A stretch of 64,000 nt of DNA. Source: Mycosarcoma maydis (Eukaryota > Basidiomycota > Ustilaginomycetes > Ustilaginales). The notes under the pieces are model-generated. The model saw only the letters and a list, made by a program, of their open reading frames with translations, was not told the origin of the DNA and did no database searches. Positions 5,288 to 12,557 of this stretch are shown in pieces. The DNA is taken from positions 1 to 64,000 of the forward strand of contig NC_026495.1 of NCBI RefSeq assembly GCF_000328475.2, in the 5' to 3' direction. The translations under genes were made by a program, and so were the position numbers. Position 1 is the stretch's first letter, and the number at the start of each line of letters is the position of its first letter.

Positions 5288-5322
5288 CATTCACCATTCA
5301 CCATTCACCATTCACCATTCGT
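5288..5322. repeat. CATTCAC heptamer tandem repeat
   Basis: Four exact copies of CATTCAC and a fifth that turns into CATTCGTGAA. The unit is a relative of the dispersed TCACGATT word and lies about 370 bases before the RRP17 start. Confidence 0.9.
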
Positions 5323-5687
5323 GAACCGAAACTCGTGACTTGGGATGGGACGAACACTTCGGCCTGACATTTTCTTCCAAGAAACACTCGTGACTGAAAC
5401 TCGTGAAATCCAATCACAAATCCGGAAATCGGACAAGAGCCATTCACGATTCTTGATTCGTGATTATGATTGTGATTTCGTGACTGTCTTGAAAATTTTG
5501 GAAAAAAAAGAAAAAGAAAAAAAGAAAAAACCGAAAAAGCGTTCGTTCTGTCGTGCGTGTTCGTTCTGCCAAGAAAGAAGATTTGGTGATCTTCTGGCTT
5601 TGGTTCAGGACCACGACCACGACCACGACCAGCTCCTATCTCGCTCGGGCATCTTCTACCGCCAACACAGTATACCGCGTTTCGACC

Positions 5688-6417
5688 ATGGCGCAGAAAG
5701 GAAGAGGAAAGGGCAAGGGTCCCGAGCTTGTATTCGATGACAAGGCACGAGCCGAGTATCTGACTGGATTCCGTAAACGTAAGCAAGAACGAAAGCAGGC
5801 CGGCAGAGACTACCTCGCAAAAAAGGCCAAGGAAGAGCAACTGGCTACGCGCAAGGAGCTTCGCGAGGCTCGCAAGCAAAAGGCTGCCGAAAATGTGCGA
5901 GAGCAAAGAAAGGCTTTCGGTCTCGAGGCCGAGGGAGAGTCGGATCTTGACGGCGCCGCAGGTTTGGATGACGATCAAGAGATCGACGAGGACGACGAGG
6001 ATGCTGTTCCACCGATTCAACAGCAAGAGTACGATTCGGATCAACATCACACCCATGTTGTCGTCGAGTCCTTCGATCCAGAGCAAGAGGCGTTCGAAAA
6101 GGCAACTGCGGCCGCATCCACTCCAGCAAAACCAAAAGCAAATGGTGCGTCTGCCACTGCACCCTCCAAAGTAGAGGTTCTTCCACCTTCCTCCCGCCGC
6201 GTCAACAAAGCTAAGGCCAATGCGAGTCTCTCTCCCCTCCTCTCGCAACCTTGCACTCGTCCCATGATCAACACGCTGACAACGTCTTCTCCCCTTTTCA
6301 TTCGACCAACAACAGGCCAAGGCAAAGAAACGAGTGATCCACACCAAGAAGAAAATGTCGCGCAGAAAAGACTCCACATCTCGGGGCTCACAGCCTCGTT
6401 CTCGCAAGAGGATCTAG
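5688..6417 (+). CDS. RRP17: RRP17/NOL12-like rRNA-processing protein (spliced reading)
   Basis: Predicted join 5688..6221,6316..6417, 211 residues. The N-terminal 65 residues match the Nop25/Rrp17 family: ELVFDDKARAEYLTGFRKRK, then a long charged helix rich in RKE (residues about 25-80). Family members are nucleolar 5'-3' exonucleases or RNA-binding factors for 5.8S/25S rRNA 5' ends. The unspliced frame runs on into NOP8. Removing 6222-6315 instead joins to AKAKKRVIHTKKKMSRR and a stop at 6415-6417, a basic tail typical of nucleolar proteins. Acceptor support is good (CTGAC at about 6275, pyrimidine tract, CAG at 6313-6315). The donor is weak: GCGAGT (GC-AG) at 6222, or GTCAAC at 6201; both keep the same phase. 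The family call is firm; the splice is a hypothesis. Confidence 0.6.
6222..6315 (+). other. Candidate alternative intron, GC-AG type, in the RRP17/NOP8 locus
   Basis: Length 94, not a multiple of three. The donor AAT|GCGAGT is non-canonical, but positions +3 to +6 fit U1. The branch site is ACGCTGACAA near 6270-6280 and the acceptor is CAACAACAG. Retention keeps the NOP8 frame open; removal switches frame and stops at 6417. An alternative donor at 6201 (GTCAAC) would give a 115-base intron with the same phase. Confidence 0.45.
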
Positions 6418-8912
6418 TGCGTCGCTTTTCCACCTTTGGCACCGTAGTCGCTCTTGATGGTCTTGGCAAGCGTGATGCTGTGGGACAGTTGCAACCGTAC
6501 GCATACCTGACCTTGCGAGCACCAGCGCAACAGATCCACCGCTGCATCAACCTATTGTCCGGATCCGTATGGAAAGGTGCCACTCTGCGCATCGGAGAAG
6601 CCAAGCCCGACTACCAACAACGTATCCTGCTCGAAAATCAAAAGCGTCGGCAAGAACAGGAGGAAAACCGAAAAAACCCCAAGAAAACCAAACGCCTACC
6701 ACCAGGGATGGGCTTCGAGAGCTCGCATATGGATCCGGTCGATGAAAAACTTGTTGAGAACGGGCTGGCTTGGGGTTGGAAGCGTACGCCCGCAGGACAC
6801 CTCGTTCGTCCACTGCGTATGCGACCTACCCACCCACTACCTAAACCATCTCGCCTATCCACGCTGTCAAGAGCCAACGTCACCGACGCCACCGATGCCA
6901 CCCAAAGCGATCAGGATGAGCAACAACAAGCCGCGTCCAGCAGACGTGCGCGTGTCAATCCTCGCCCTCCGACCAAAGCACACCGAATCACGATCGACCC
7001 CACCCGATACGGCTCTATCCATCTTTCCGGTCCGCTGCTCGAATCGCTTGCCGCTGAGACGCGCTCGTCTTCCGACGCTTTCGACGCTTCTTCGCTCGGT
7101 CCAGGCGAATGGCACTGCGAAGAGATCCATTACGACGATGCAGCTCAAGCGAGCGACCAAGTTGATCATCGATTGGTCCGATGGCAATACACTGCAAAAA
7201 ATGGTAAAGTGTTGCACGAGGAATTCACCAAGATCCCAGTTCGAATTGTGCACAGGCAGTCGGCCATTTCAGCTACCCTTCAAGACGCAGAGGATGTCAT
7301 GGCGCAGCTCGATTTTGATAAATTCTCGGACGCTGCCAGCGACGATGATCTCTTTGCCGGGTTCGCTTCTTCGATCACCCCAGCGAAGCAGCACTTCGAG
7401 CCAGAGGCATCTTCGAGCACTGAAGCGAGAAAAGTCAACGACGCTGTCGACACGACCGATATCGACGATCTGTTCGCCGACCTTGCCTCGTCGATTGTCC
7501 CTGCAACCAACGTTAACGATCTGTTTTCAGACTTGCCCTCGATCGCCACATCTGTGCCGCCAACCAATCGCGTCAAGGTCGACACTGTGGCCGCTTCGAC
7601 ACGGACGTCGTCCGAGAAAATTCAAGGATCGTTCGTTCCTGGTTTGGACCCAGAAGAAGATGACCCTGCCAACTTTTCAGACGGGTACGACGAGGCGGCT
7701 GCAGGAGCACTTTCAAGCCACATCAAGCAGATCGACGCGCAAGAAGAGCGACAAAAGACGCTCGCGCTATTGGGCGAGATGTTTGGGTCCGGTTTCGATG
7801 ACGGCACGTACAACGCAAGTGTGGATCAAGTGGGGCAGGAAGAAGCACCCGAGTCGTCGTGCAAATCAGCGAAGTCCAGCTCCGATTCGGATAGCGATTC
7901 TGAAGATGCAGAGCAGAGCACTTCGCCTGGCTCGAGCTCGAGCTCGAGCTCAGCCAGCGAGGTGGGTGACGTAGAAATGGTTGTTGAAGCCGAGAATCCT
8001 GAGGCTGAAGCGGTCGAAGCAGAGGCAGATAGCGAGGACGAGCAAGAAAATTTCATGGCCGACGAGCCTAGCAGCGCGGTCGCGATCCAAGTCAGTAGCG
8101 CGCCTCTAGACGCAAAGTCTCGTCGTGCAGCTTTGCTTCTGTCACCTTCAAAGGTTACAAATGGCGAGTCGAGCGAGGCGACTGGGAGCTTTGTGCCCAT
8201 AGCGCGTTTCGACCCTGGCACGCGTAGCACTGTCGACCGCGACGTTGATGCCGGTATCGGCCCCGTAGCGCCGCAAGCAACACGAGCTCGATCGCTGTCT
8301 TTGCCGCAACCAAGCAACACCGTGTCAGCGGCGCCACACGTGGAGCAAGGAACGCACGTGTCCATGTCGACGTTGAAGGAAATGTTCAAGCCGCAAGATC
8401 GACCGTCTGCGTCTGCGGTCACCACTGGGTTTAGCGTGGGTCTCGGTGTAAATGCCAATGATGCGCGCGCTGATGGTGGGCAAGGCTTTTCGCTGATGGA
8501 CTCGCTCGGATTCGAGTTCGAGCTAGAAGAAGAGCAAGAGCAGGAGCCTCGGTCTGAGCTGTATGCTACTGCTTCTCTCTGGTCGAATTCCGGTTCCTCG
8601 CGATTCCAACCCACGGCAACAGCCACCGCATTGTCGGTCGAACAATCAGAGCAACCCAAGAAGCTTGCGCCGTTCTTCCCATCATCCTCCACCGCATCCT
8701 GGAACGGCACAGATGGCCAAGCATCCGTCCAGCGCTGGTTCAAGCCAAGATCGCACCACCAAAAGCAAGCCGACTGGACCAAGTACAAAGAATCCCTAAC
8801 GCGGGTCGTCAAGAAACGTCACAGAGAGGCCGCGCGAAAACACAAGCGCAACTTTACCACCATCTCGCACCAGCACAATGCTTCACTCACATCAAAGTTG
8901 ACCCCACCATGA
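6264..8912 (+). CDS. NOP8: NOP8/NOL8-like nucleolar RRM protein (the same frame is open from the RRP17 start at 5688)
   Basis: The frame is open from 5688 to 8912 (1,074 residues as a fusion with the RRP17 domain). If translated alone, the nearest ATG is 6264 (882 residues), inside the candidate intron. An RRM begins at about 6366 with KRLHISGLTASFSQEDLVRR, contains PYAYLTL, and ends in WKGATLRIGEAKPDY, which is diagnostic for NOP8/NOL8. Downstream are a lysine-rich helix, WGWKRTPAGHLVRPLRMRP, and long acidic, serine-rich regions (SSSSSSASEVGDVEMVVEAE). The C-terminus is basic (VVKKRHREAARKHKRNF). Yeast Nop8 acts in 60S subunit assembly with Nip7. NOP8 identity is firm; which start or isoform is used is unknown. 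Confidence 0.8.
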   Translation: MINTLTTSSPLFIRPTTGQGKETSDPHQEENVAQKRLHISGLTASFSQEDLVRRFSTFGTVVALDGLGKRDAVGQLQPYAYLTLRAPAQQIHRCINLLSGSVWKGATLRIGEAKPDYQQRILLENQKRRQEQEENRKNPKKTKRLPPGMGFESSHMDPVDEKLVENGLAWGWKRTPAGHLVRPLRMRPTHPLPKPSRLSTLSRANVTDATDATQSDQDEQQQAASSRRARVNPRPPTKAHRITIDPTRYGSIHLSGPLLESLAAETRSSSDAFDASSLGPGEWHCEEIHYDDAAQASDQVDHRLVRWQYTAKNGKVLHEEFTKIPVRIVHRQSAISATLQDAEDVMAQLDFDKFSDAASDDDLFAGFASSITPAKQHFEPEASSSTEARKVNDAVDTTDIDDLFADLASSIVPATNVNDLFSDLPSIATSVPPTNRVKVDTVAASTRTSSEKIQGSFVPGLDPEEDDPANFSDGYDEAAAGALSSHIKQIDAQEERQKTLALLGEMFGSGFDDGTYNASVDQVGQEEAPESSCKSAKSSSDSDSDSEDAEQSTSPGSSSSSSSASEVGDVEMVVEAENPEAEAVEAEADSEDEQENFMADEPSSAVAIQVSSAPLDAKSRRAALLLSPSKVTNGESSEATGSFVPIARFDPGTRSTVDRDVDAGIGPVAPQATRARSLSLPQPSNTVSAAPHVEQGTHVSMSTLKEMFKPQDRPSASAVTTGFSVGLGVNANDARADGGQGFSLMDSLGFEFELEEEQEQEPRSELYATASLWSNSGSSRFQPTATATALSVEQSEQPKKLAPFFPSSSTASWNGTDGQASVQRWFKPRSHHQKQADWTKYKESLTRVVKKRHREAARKHKRNFTTISHQHNASLTSKLTPP

Positions 8913-9379: not shown

Positions 9380-10360
9380 TCAGCCCTGACGATCGCGGCG
9401 CATCTGCGACTTGTGTCGTCGGTAATCGCCGCGAGCTGCAAGGACGGAAGCATTGGGAGAACGTCGACGCTTCTTCATACGGCAAGCGCCGCTCTGAGCT
9501 ATTTGACTCTTGGGCATAGTTGTCGAGCCGCTTGAGCCTCCATTGTTGTCAGAAGATGATCCATTAGAGGAGTCGCCCGAAGAAGACGAGTCGTCGTCAG
9601 AACCAGAACCAGACGCGGTCGAAGCGGTTCCACTCTCGCTGACCGAAGACGAAGTGGTGGATGAAGTGGCAGCCGAAGCGGCAGACGATGAACCAGTTGT
9701 GCTCGTTGCACTACTGTTGCTGCTGCTACTGCTGCTGCTGCTGTTGCCGCCGCCGAAATCAAGGTCCAGACACTGGTAAAACGCATTGGCCGTGTTGTCA
9801 ACGGTCCAGACAGCATACACAACGTGGTAGCCCGAACGCGATGGCATGGCTTTGGATAGGTCGTGATTCATGGTTCTGGGAGGCGCCTTTCCGTTCATCG
9901 AGACCGTGAGGAATGGGTCAGACTCAAGGTCGCTGGCAGAAAGACCGCTGGTCTTGGACGAGTCCCAGTTAGCCTTGGTGATGAAGTACTTGAAGTCGGT
10001 GGTGGCGTGCTGCGCGGTAAAGGTCCATGAGAAAGAGTGAACACCGCTGGCCTTTGTGGTGGGCCAAGCGCTGGGTCCTTGGCGATCCAGCTGAGAGAAC
10101 TGACCGAGACCAGCTGAACAAAGTTGACCGTCGCCCTTGCGGGCGAAAGGGAGACCCTTTGGAGCCTCGACGGATTGCGGCTCGTACTGAATCTCACCGC
10201 AATTCTTGGCCTGACCTTGCTTGCACATGTAGGCACGCGATGCGGGAAAAGTGACGTAGCCGTGAGCATCGACAAAGGTGAAAACGAGGTGGGACAGAGT
10301 TGCGACCAGCGCGACGAGCCGGAATAGCGAGACAGACGCGTTCGAGTTGCTGAAAACCAT
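9380..10360 (-). CDS. Secreted AA10-type lytic polysaccharide monooxygenase (chitin-binding type 3 domain)
   Basis: Encodes 326 residues from ATG at 10360 (MVFSNSNASV). A signal peptide with core LFRLVALVATLSHLVF ends before HGYVTFPASRAYMCKQ. That makes His33 the mature N-terminus, the first ligand of the copper histidine brace; the second is His118 in WTFTAQHATTDFKYF. Cysteines, NCGEIQYEPQ and CLDLDFGG further fit the AA10 fold (PF03067). Such enzymes oxidatively cleave chitin or cellulose. After the catalytic domain (to about residue 225) comes a Ser/Thr-rich, probably O-glycosylated linker, then a strongly basic tail (MKKRRRSPNAS). No carbohydrate-binding module or GPI signal is seen. AA10 is mainly bacterial and viral; fungal members are few, with smuts among the known holders, so ancient transfer is plausible. 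Likely substrate is chitin, inferred. Confidence 0.88.
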   Translation of the reverse strand: MVFSNSNASVSLFRLVALVATLSHLVFTFVDAHGYVTFPASRAYMCKQGQAKNCGEIQYEPQSVEAPKGLPFARKGDGQLCSAGLGQFSQLDRQGPSAWPTTKASGVHSFSWTFTAQHATTDFKYFITKANWDSSKTSGLSASDLESDPFLTVSMNGKAPPRTMNHDLSKAMPSRSGYHVVYAVWTVDNTANAFYQCLDLDFGGGNSSSSSSSSNSSATSTTGSSSAASAATSSTTSSSVSESGTASTASGSGSDDDSSSSGDSSNGSSSDNNGGSSGSTTMPKSQIAQSGACRMKKRRRSPNASVLAARGDYRRHKSQMRRDRQG

Positions 10361-12557
10361 GGTTGCGAGGGAGAACAAGAGAGAAGACAAAAGGGACCAG
10401 CCCGAGATGGAAAAGGGTGTGCGGAAACGGGAGCGGGAAGGTGAAGAGGATGGATAGAGGAAGCGAAGATGAGATGATGGAAGAGAACAAGGGTGACGAC
10501 GAGCAAGCCTAGACAGCACCAGAAGAGAGACGACAATCACCAACTACAGAGGATGTGCGCTGGAAAAGTCTTGGCTGCGCGAGTAGTATCTAAATTGTTT
10601 CTAAGAGAGTGAGCTGAAAGTTCGGCTGTGTGGTGACTGAATTGGAATTGTCAGCCAGCCGAGAGCAAAGGGGGCGGCTATTTTAAATGCTTCAGTCTCA
10701 ACCGCATACACCTCACCTTGCTTGTTTGAGACTTACAAGACAAAGCCGAGTCCTTTCGCTCTCATCACAGTAATCGCAGCTTCTACAGCAGCATTGATCT
10801 CGGCCAGCAGCACTTCCTCGCTGTCAGTTCTGGGGTCTGAGCCGAAACAACCAATCGTAGCATCGCGGTTTGGGGGGTGTCTGCTGAAGCGTTCACTACT
10901 GAGCAAGCACGAATGGATCAGCGCAGCAGGCTTGAGGATGAGAGGTGACAAAGCAGCGCACCCACCGAGACAAGACAGAACAGCGGCCACATTGAGCGCA
11001 GAAAGCAACGGTAGTCGAATCACATGTTGAGCTTCGGAAGCGCCGTCTCCGACGATACGAGCCGTGACAGCGAAACTAAGTTCTCAACGATCGAAGCGCA
11101 GAAAAGCGGGACAGCGGGAAAGCAGCGCTGGCAACATTCGTCGTTCTTCAGAAGCCACTGCCAAAGCGAAGATGAGCCTGTGATGATCAGCAAAGTTGAA
11201 GGTGCTGGCGTTTCAAAACTTTCGGCTTCACCGTCTTCGATCGTCTCAGTTGTCAGTGTCTTGCAAATCACAAAATCTGCTGCGCTAAACTTTGAGCCCC
11301 GCTTTGATTTGTGTCATGTGCCCTATGTTCGATTGAGTTTCGGCTTCTGCGACAGCATCGTATAGACTTGGGCATAGCGCAGAGCGGCAGCGCAGCAGAC
11401 CAGCGCAACTCAATGACAAGCTCAATAATCTACCCGCTATGATCACAGCCCTCGAATTCGTGATCAACGATTCGTGATTGGACTCACGATTTGTATGCTG
11501 TCAGACGTGAGACAAGAAGCGAAGAAAAGGGGGGAATGCTGCCATGCTTGCTGGCCTCGGCAACGGAAAATGTGTGACAGCTGGAAAATGAACTCACAGG
11601 GTCCTATGACTTGGCGCTTCACGCTTGTTTCTCGTGACAGTCACGAGTCACAGTCGTGAGTCTCAGTCACGAGTATGAGTGTGCTTGACTTTTCTCCCTC
11701 TTGGCGCGCCGTGCTTTGACGTGTCGTGTCTGTATGCAGGAGGCACTTGACATTGGCAGTTGTGAGTGACTTGACTGGCGGATGATTCACGATTCGTGAT
11801 TTAATTCCACACGCGACTCTCGACTGCAGCTTTCATCTTCACACCGAGTCCCAATCGTGAATCACAAATCACAAATGTAATCACCATTCACGATTACTGC
11901 GTTGCGGTGCCTATCCCGCATTCTGGTGCCTGTCTCACATTCACGATTGCTCTCCACTCGCATGAAATCCTAGATTTCTTTTCGCTGCCTCCGTTGCGTT
12001 GAATTTTTCGACTTTCCACACTCACGACTCGTGACTTTCTCGAAAGCTTTGTCACCGTCTCGCTCGCTCCGCTTCTGCTTGTTTCCATTCATGCAGAGCG
12101 CATCTTGATCCGACCAAGCATCGGCAGTTGGCCGATCGATGGATACGGCTGAGTTTTCTTTCGCGACTGTGTGATCGAAAGCTGAGCAGCTGATGTCCAA
12201 TCACAAACGCCCAACAGAAGACAACATGCGATTGAACAGTATGGTACAGTACGTCAACTGAATGCGAAAATTGACTTGACACGCCAATTGGGGTTACACG
12301 TTACAGTATATATTCACGTTTAATATAAGATTTGATTGAACGTCCAGAGCTTCCGCTGCGAGACAGTCCAGCGTCGGGAGCCTGTGAGTCTCGATCTGGA
12401 TAGATGATCACGAATCTGGACCATGCATTCACGATTACAGCACCGTTCCGTACCTCTCTGACACATGGAGGGGAACAACTGCTACAATCACGAATGTTGA
12501 TTGGCTTTATATACATGTACTATCGCTTCACTGGACGACGCTCGGATTCATTAGAGT
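10361..12557. other. Large intergenic region with repeat words and one unresolved open frame
   Basis: About 2.2 kb between two minus-strand genes. It holds the LPMO upstream region, with a TTTAAAAT box read on the minus strand near 10680-10690. It also holds an unrecognised frame (10537-11023) and an 11.45-12.5 kb stretch rich in TCACGA/TCGTGA words (11460-11480, 11640-11680, 11780-11900). A plus-strand ATG frame at 11024-11365 has no recognisable motif and I do not call it. Confidence 0.5.
10537..11023 (-). CDS. Unrecognised open frame with a good intron signature, possible gene or remnant
   Basis: A minus-strand frame has no ATG; its open part in the listed interval begins at a GTG codon. 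It reads coding-like residues such as NAAVEAAITVMRAKGLGF. It runs into a perfect GTAAGT donor at 10736. This is followed by GGCTGACAATT (branch site) and a CAG acceptor ending at 10637, giving a 100-base intron like others in this window. The downstream exon would end at a TGA at 10537-10539. Weak points: there is no start codon, no family was recognised, and the 3' exon would overlap the presumed LPMO promoter. It could be a decayed gene or chance. Confidence 0.2.

Follow-up and report, generated by a model that had tools for sequence, protein, structure and literature searches.

A smut locus that probably encodes RRP17 and a NOP8-type protein from one start codon by a frame-changing splice choice

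In the CDKN2A (INK4a/ARF) gene a shared exon is read in two frames, giving two unrelated proteins that belong to one pathway area. For the isoforms by which Ustilago maydis directs proteins to peroxisomes, the reference is reportedly Freitag 2012. Such isoforms arise in U. maydis via alternative splicing or read-through, according to the accessible part of PMC7214817. In fungi, the SKI7/HBS1 gene gives rise by alternative splicing to two functionally distinct proteins in many species, as described in the portion of PMC3597508 at hand. Alternative 5' splice sites that lie close together form a further class: tandem sites of the GYNNGY type are mostly noise in human and mouse, and the regulated ones are mainly linked to NMD (PMC4267661, in the text accessible to us).

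Here we report that a locus of U. maydis, lying in the window (the whole stretch of 64,000 nucleotides that was analysed), probably encodes RRP17 and a NOP8-type factor by splice choice from one transcription unit with one start codon (position 5688), a reading based on sequence comparison. Proteins of the RRP17 family have 5'-3' exonuclease activity in pre-60S maturation (PMC2806520, accessible part). In yeast, the early-acting Npa1 complex includes Nop8, and Rrp17 associates with late nucleolar particles, as far as the available text of PMC9196750 describes them. The open literature, outside which subscription papers mostly lie, yielded nothing on Ustilago together with Nop8 or with Rrp17; judging by titles, none of its papers on Rrp17 with Nop8 was about smuts and none of those on dual coding in fungi, among the matches listed, concerned this locus.

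The stop-to-stop frame 5493-8912 (+) is open throughout. From the RRP17 Met1 at 5688 to position 8912 it passes through the Nop25/RRP17 domain, the RRM and the rest of the NOP8-type protein with no interruption, as the first-pass annotation of this DNA had described (Table 1). The same annotation held that removal of a 94-base intron shifts the frame towards a stop at 6417, and this proved correct: the stop falls 52 nt into the RRM, which begins at 6366. Joining the GC donor (6222) to the acceptor (6315) would leave the ribosome in a conserved basic-tail frame and yield RRP17 of 211 aa. The frame-0 outcomes, namely splicing from the GT at 6145 (6145-6315 removed, 1017 aa), splicing from the GT at 6226 (6226-6315 removed, 1044 aa) and, in most relatives, retention (1074 aa in U. 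maydis), would join the N-terminal part of RRP17 to NOP8, so that exon 2 would be read in two frames over 6316-6417. Exon 1 up to 6144 is predicted to be common to all isoforms, and its LPPSSRRVNKAKAN block is identical in 13 compared proteins. The isoforms presumably exist as mRNAs, and a dominant NOP8-making route and a regulated choice may be supposed. The unit lies on the + strand between two - strand genes, one for a DUF4246 protein and one for LPMO_10; the latter (lytic polysaccharide mono-oxygenase, 9380-10363) adjoins the locus and has a serine-rich tail. Directly upstream of RRP17, window positions 5288-5530 hold short tandem repeats (CATTCAC, GATTCGT) and an A-rich tract.

Table 1. 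Positions of observed and predicted features of the RRP17/NOP8 locus, in window coordinates
Feature	Position	Strand	Description
Exon 1	5688..6221	+	RRP17 start codon, Nop25 domain, conserved LPPSSRRVNKAKAN block
Nop25 (RRP17/NOL12) domain	5703..6077	+	Pfam match; single match in own genome
Donor C, GTGCGT	6145..6150	+	171-nt intron to 6315, NOP8 frame preserved, 1017 aa (predicted)
Donor A, GCGAGT (GC donor)	6222..6227	+	Splicing would lead into the RRP17 tail frame
Donor B, GTCTCT, GT at 6226		+	Overlaps donor A, 4-nt tandem; NOP8 frame preserved, 1044 aa (predicted)
Candidate intron, GC...AG	6222..6315	+	94 nt
Intronic ATG, NOP8 frame	6264..6266	+	Not general among relatives
CTGAC branch-like motif	6276..6280	+	Branch A 36 nt before AG end
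Stretch in two frames	6316..6417	+	RRP17 basic tail, stop 6415-6417; NOP8 linker and RRM start
NOP8-type RRM region	6366..6602, end approximate	+	KRLHISGL to WKGATLRIGEA
Exon 2, NOP8 frame	6316..8912	+	Stop 8910-8912
C-terminal LTxxxKKRHREA basic motif	8796..8849	+	Common to NOP8-type proteins of other basidiomycetes

The first protein is well identified by its Pfam Nop25 match (residues 6-130, E 4.5e-24, 86 bits against a curated cut-off of 22.5), and the best solved matches in PDB to its N-terminal part are NOL12/RRP17 chains. The RRM of the second is weak by itself in the U. maydis protein (Pfam, E 0.2); it exceeds the Pfam cut-off in the Violaceomyces relative P0016 (E 3.9e-7), and a profile of 21 such RRM sequences finds solved RRMs, the best at E 4.1e-7. 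None of the protein-search matches listed bore the name NOP8, all having other names or none. The name is our assumption from a resemblance of motifs, notably the WKG...L.I..AK pattern that we take the NOP8-type protein to have in common with human NOL8. Searches of the organism's own genome (an assembly of 19,664,356 bases in 27 contigs, the window being on contig 18) turned up a single match to the NOP8-type RRM and a single Nop25 domain; this locus must therefore supply both the RRP17 and the NOP8 functions, barring a diverged copy that escaped the searches.

Protein searches, in which 7980, 620 and 7994 candidates were scored and for which all counts refer to the matches listed, showed P0001-P0014 and P0016, among 17 such matches, to combine the fusion frame with a Nop25 domain; these include proteins named as Pseudozyma, Ustilago, Sporisorium, Kalmanozyma, Moesziomyces, Testicularia and Violaceomyces. 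Their junctions are those of gene models or open frames and were read at the protein level. The segment from donor C to the acceptor is dropped in the models P0003, P0009, P0013 and P0014, and an [ND]G[AT]S peptide stands at the place of donor C in 12 of 13 proteins (P0006 being the exception); P0004 and P0010 have the donor B junction, and P0001, P0002, P0005, P0006, P0007, P0008, P0011 and P0012 read through the intron. The claim that RRP17 and NOP8 are interlocked in one locus with a frame switch finds support in the relatives. The fusion model of Violaceomyces palustris (P0016) seems to have its junction, near KKANAKEQ, where donor A lies, but stays in the NOP8 frame there; this suggests that RRP17 and NOP8 are in a different phase relative to each other in Violaceomyces. 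Two RRP17-type proteins are filed under plants, P0019 under Cichorium endivia and P0024 under Adiantum nelumboides; P0019 matches the Moesziomyces-type protein P0018 in 179 of its first 180 residues and is therefore probably fungal contamination. In models from Grifola frondosa and Lyophyllum shimeji (P0045 and P0056) NOP8-type sequence is joined to a peptidase domain, perhaps by the merging of neighbouring genes. A pattern search of the prokaryote collection gave 34 matches, none of them a relative.

The candidate intron 6222-6315 has a GCGAGT donor with a poor exon side (AAT), CTGAC at 6276-6280 and CAG at 6315. In an EST study of U. maydis, GC/AG counted among the accepted intron borders; of 193 alternative events, 114 were retentions and 23 involved alternative donors, and splice sites were more degenerate in retained introns (PMC2219887, in the part accessible). 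In all eight read-through proteins the intron starts with Ala-Ser-Leu after KAN and has the same acceptor end, and Leu-Thr, compatible with CTGAC, lies 11-19 residues before the acceptor in seven of them, with Thr-Asp in P0006; these marks are peptide-level ones, from which the donor dinucleotide is not readable. The inferred GC...AG lengths are 94, 106, 169, 124, 109, 124, 127 and 88 nt; each leaves a remainder of 1 on division by 3, a consequence of measuring open fusions only. Conserved ends and a conserved branch motif in eight proteins, despite lengths anywhere between 88 and 169 nt, give this segment the look of a real intron, in line with the first-pass proposal of a 94-base intron with a CTGAC branch, CAG acceptor and GC donor. 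Ribosomal frameshifting in place of splicing was set aside because the intron marks are conserved. In ~22% of draws, chance alone would leave an intron of this composition and of variable length open into the NOP8 frame; eight open lineages of 12 correspond to P 0.0013 under the composition model (p 0.22) and 0.019 at p 1/3, values that ignore ancestry and ascertainment and that count as closed U. trichophora, S. scitamineum and T. cyperi (intron not visible) and the Moesziomyces type. Two donors absent from the first-pass annotation, GTGCGT at 6145 and GTCTCT at 6226, reach the same acceptor in the NOP8 frame, and positions 6222-6227 fit the tandem motif GYNNGY, with two GY donors 4 nt apart. 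In the predicted fold, a 6-bp hairpin at window positions 6221-6247 pairs the GC/GT donor with downstream CTCGCA.

If the locus made a permanent RRP17-NOP8 protein only, with the GC donor unused, its alternative frame would be meaningless. Public gene models do show the fusion (P0002-P0004, P0006-P0010, P0013, P0014 and P0016), and the read-through protein scores best on a profile of outgroup RRP17s (146.7 bits, against 138.7 with the tail, 138.0 without it and 139.9 with the NOP8-frame linker; 100 shuffled tails averaged 136.8 and reached at most 144.6). These scores count against the splice-choice reading. Homology of the tail to outgroup RRP17 C-termini was set aside, the gain being a mere 0.7 bits. 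The tail and its stop are nevertheless conserved far beyond what random synonymous codons give, in the overlap and not in a control stretch. Between U. maydis and P0018, the one relative with a directly readable tail (the others were back-translated), 27 of 33 tail residues and the stop are identical; P0018 is itself identical to Moesziomyces aphidis P0013 over 154 residues, and against P0013 the NOP8 frame of the dual-frame stretch agrees at 22 of 35 residues, with a compatible DNA identity of 87-89/105. When P0013 was given random synonymous codons, with codon use taken from the window's own frame, the tail match had a mean of 10.8 (sd 2.4) and a maximum of 22 in 20,000 draws. In the control outside the overlap, a part of P0015 further downstream that is shifted into the same frame, the match was 24/76 against a null of 19.9 (P 0.13), at a NOP8-frame identity of 45/76; the frame breaks of P0015 look like sequence errors, and it served as control and not as tail evidence. 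P0019, which reads a third frame, was not counted for the tail. Across 12 relatives compared by back-translation, the overlap ranked 5 and 7 of 1011 windows for compatibility with the alternative frame and 529 and 288 of 1011 for the other shifted frame, neighbouring windows overlapping so that ranks are not independent; P0001 (own kind), P0003 (species of P0002), P0015 (broken) and P0016 and P0017 (distant) were left out of this ranking. Since 27 of 33 residues and the stop exceed a null maximum of 22, with no such excess in the control stretch, it is well supported by these comparisons that the alternative-frame tail is coding and that both frames are conserved beyond the demands of one. The permanent fusion is further opposed by the different stages at which the two factors act in yeast (PMC9196750, accessible part), and we consider it unlikely. 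Both-frame conservation in other smuts was thus borne out through their proteins; the dual coding first placed at 6355-6417 holds up in the relatives with too short an extent, the stretch read in two frames being 6316-6417.

The conserved alternative reading could instead be an RNA or splicing element, since the region adjoins a weak intron whose GC/GT donor the short hairpin (6221-6247) can cover. The reading consists, however, of 33 stop-free codons followed by a stop at the same place, and a clean tail with the stop in position occurs in 4.3% of random synonymous draws; the region as a whole folds unremarkably (z -0.70) and a comparison with Rfam at E 0.1 gave no match, so that a known RNA or a strong fold at the junction was rejected and an RNA element appears very improbable. 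As a protein tail, the stretch is rich in lysine and arginine. In yeast, Rrp17 lacking its C-terminal domain has lowered RNA binding and unaffected catalysis (PMC2806520), residues 209-235 contact Spb1 and rRNA helix 64, and C-terminal truncation does not slow growth (PMC10154028), as far as the accessible parts of both papers go; by analogy, an RNA-binding or contact role for the basic tail of U. maydis RRP17 is plausible.

Two overlapping genes might also account for the locus, the NOP8 transcript starting inside RRP17 at an intronic AUG or a non-AUG codon and RRP17 coming from a spliced upstream transcript. There is an in-frame ATG at 6264, and non-AUG starts are known in U. maydis (PMC7214817, accessible part). 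Against this, among the eight proteins with a readable intron, four have a Met inside it and the other four have no Met from Met1 to the RRM, so the internal start near 6264 suggested at first is not general; the frame is also open through the intron and upstream of it in eight proteins, which a separate gene would not need. Outside the intron, P0001-P0013 have no Met between Met1 and the RRM, and in P0014 and P0016 there is one, located in the Nop25 region. Among 59 other NOP8-type proteins in the matches listed, four were unscorable and 54 of the remaining 55 carry a Met at a distance of 3-25 residues ahead of the RRM. The sole exception, Thecaphora frezii P0032, starts 68 residues upstream of the RRM with MSAPTSAGLLAFTESAQK, and its RRP17-like N-terminus likewise speaks against overlapping genes. 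That N-terminus scores 88 when compared with the corresponding part of Violaceomyces P0016 (300 shuffles reached at most 55), and 50, 47 and 45 when compared with that of the RRP17s P0021, P0023 and P0024 (best shuffles 45, 41 and 39); scores were not above shuffles for P0020, P0022 and P0025, nor for the NOP8-type P0034, P0055, P0087 and P0017. P0032 is RRP17-like over residues 1-40 but lacks a Nop25 match; it looks as though the first RRP17 exon were all that it shared. As smuts lack the outgroup-type Met near the RRM, translation of the NOP8 frame seems to rely on the start codon of RRP17, and separate overlapping genes have in our judgement a low probability.

Splice choice from a single AUG therefore remains our preferred reading, in a form that departs from the simple alternative of splicing or retention put forward by the first-pass annotation. 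Retention keeps the NOP8 frame in eight proteins and fails to do so in P0018, where the intron is 102 nt and read-through still ends in the RRP17 tail; retention as a universal switch is thus rejected for the Moesziomyces-type lineage, which would need another donor to reach NOP8. Nor need retention be the only route, since donors 6145 and 6226 can also make the fusion. The suggested stoichiometric coupling of the two factors is weakened, in that early Nop8 and late Rrp17 in yeast (PMC9196750, accessible part) argue against simple coupling of this kind as well as against a permanent fusion. More tentatively, it is possible that the 4-nt tandem donor (GC|GA|GT) acts as a frame selector that divides the ribosomes starting at a single AUG between two unrelated large-subunit factors, the NOP8 start having been lost on capture by RRP17 in the ancestor of smuts and their near kin and the dual-coding exon locking the arrangement; neither factor would then be made without the other's transcript. 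If splice choice operates as proposed, the cell would have to splice alternatively to make two housekeeping proteins, using one exon in two frames, and the levels of RRP17 and the NOP8-type factor would be tied to one splice choice. It would also account for the odd fusion in smut annotations and offer a genetically tractable fungus for the study of frame-choosing 5' splice sites.

Compared with the systems described so far, the locus would share with SKI7/HBS1 the conserved production of two distinct proteins from one fungal gene by alternative splicing; there, in the accessible account, alternative 3' splice sites give rise to two related proteins, whereas here the 5' site would vary and the proteins are unrelated, with one exon in two frames. 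With the peroxisomal isoforms it shares the organism and the splicing that alters the C-terminal part of a housekeeping protein, but those isoforms, as far as the source at hand describes them, are versions of one enzyme that differ in whether they carry a targeting signal, and here a whole second protein would be gained or lost. GCGAGT fits the GYNNGY motif, and the 4-nt choice shifts the frame; unlike the human and mouse sites, mostly noise in the accessible text, both frames here are conserved coding sequence. As in CDKN2A, one exon in two frames would serve two unrelated proteins, the frames being set there by two promoters and first exons and here by one AUG and a splice choice.
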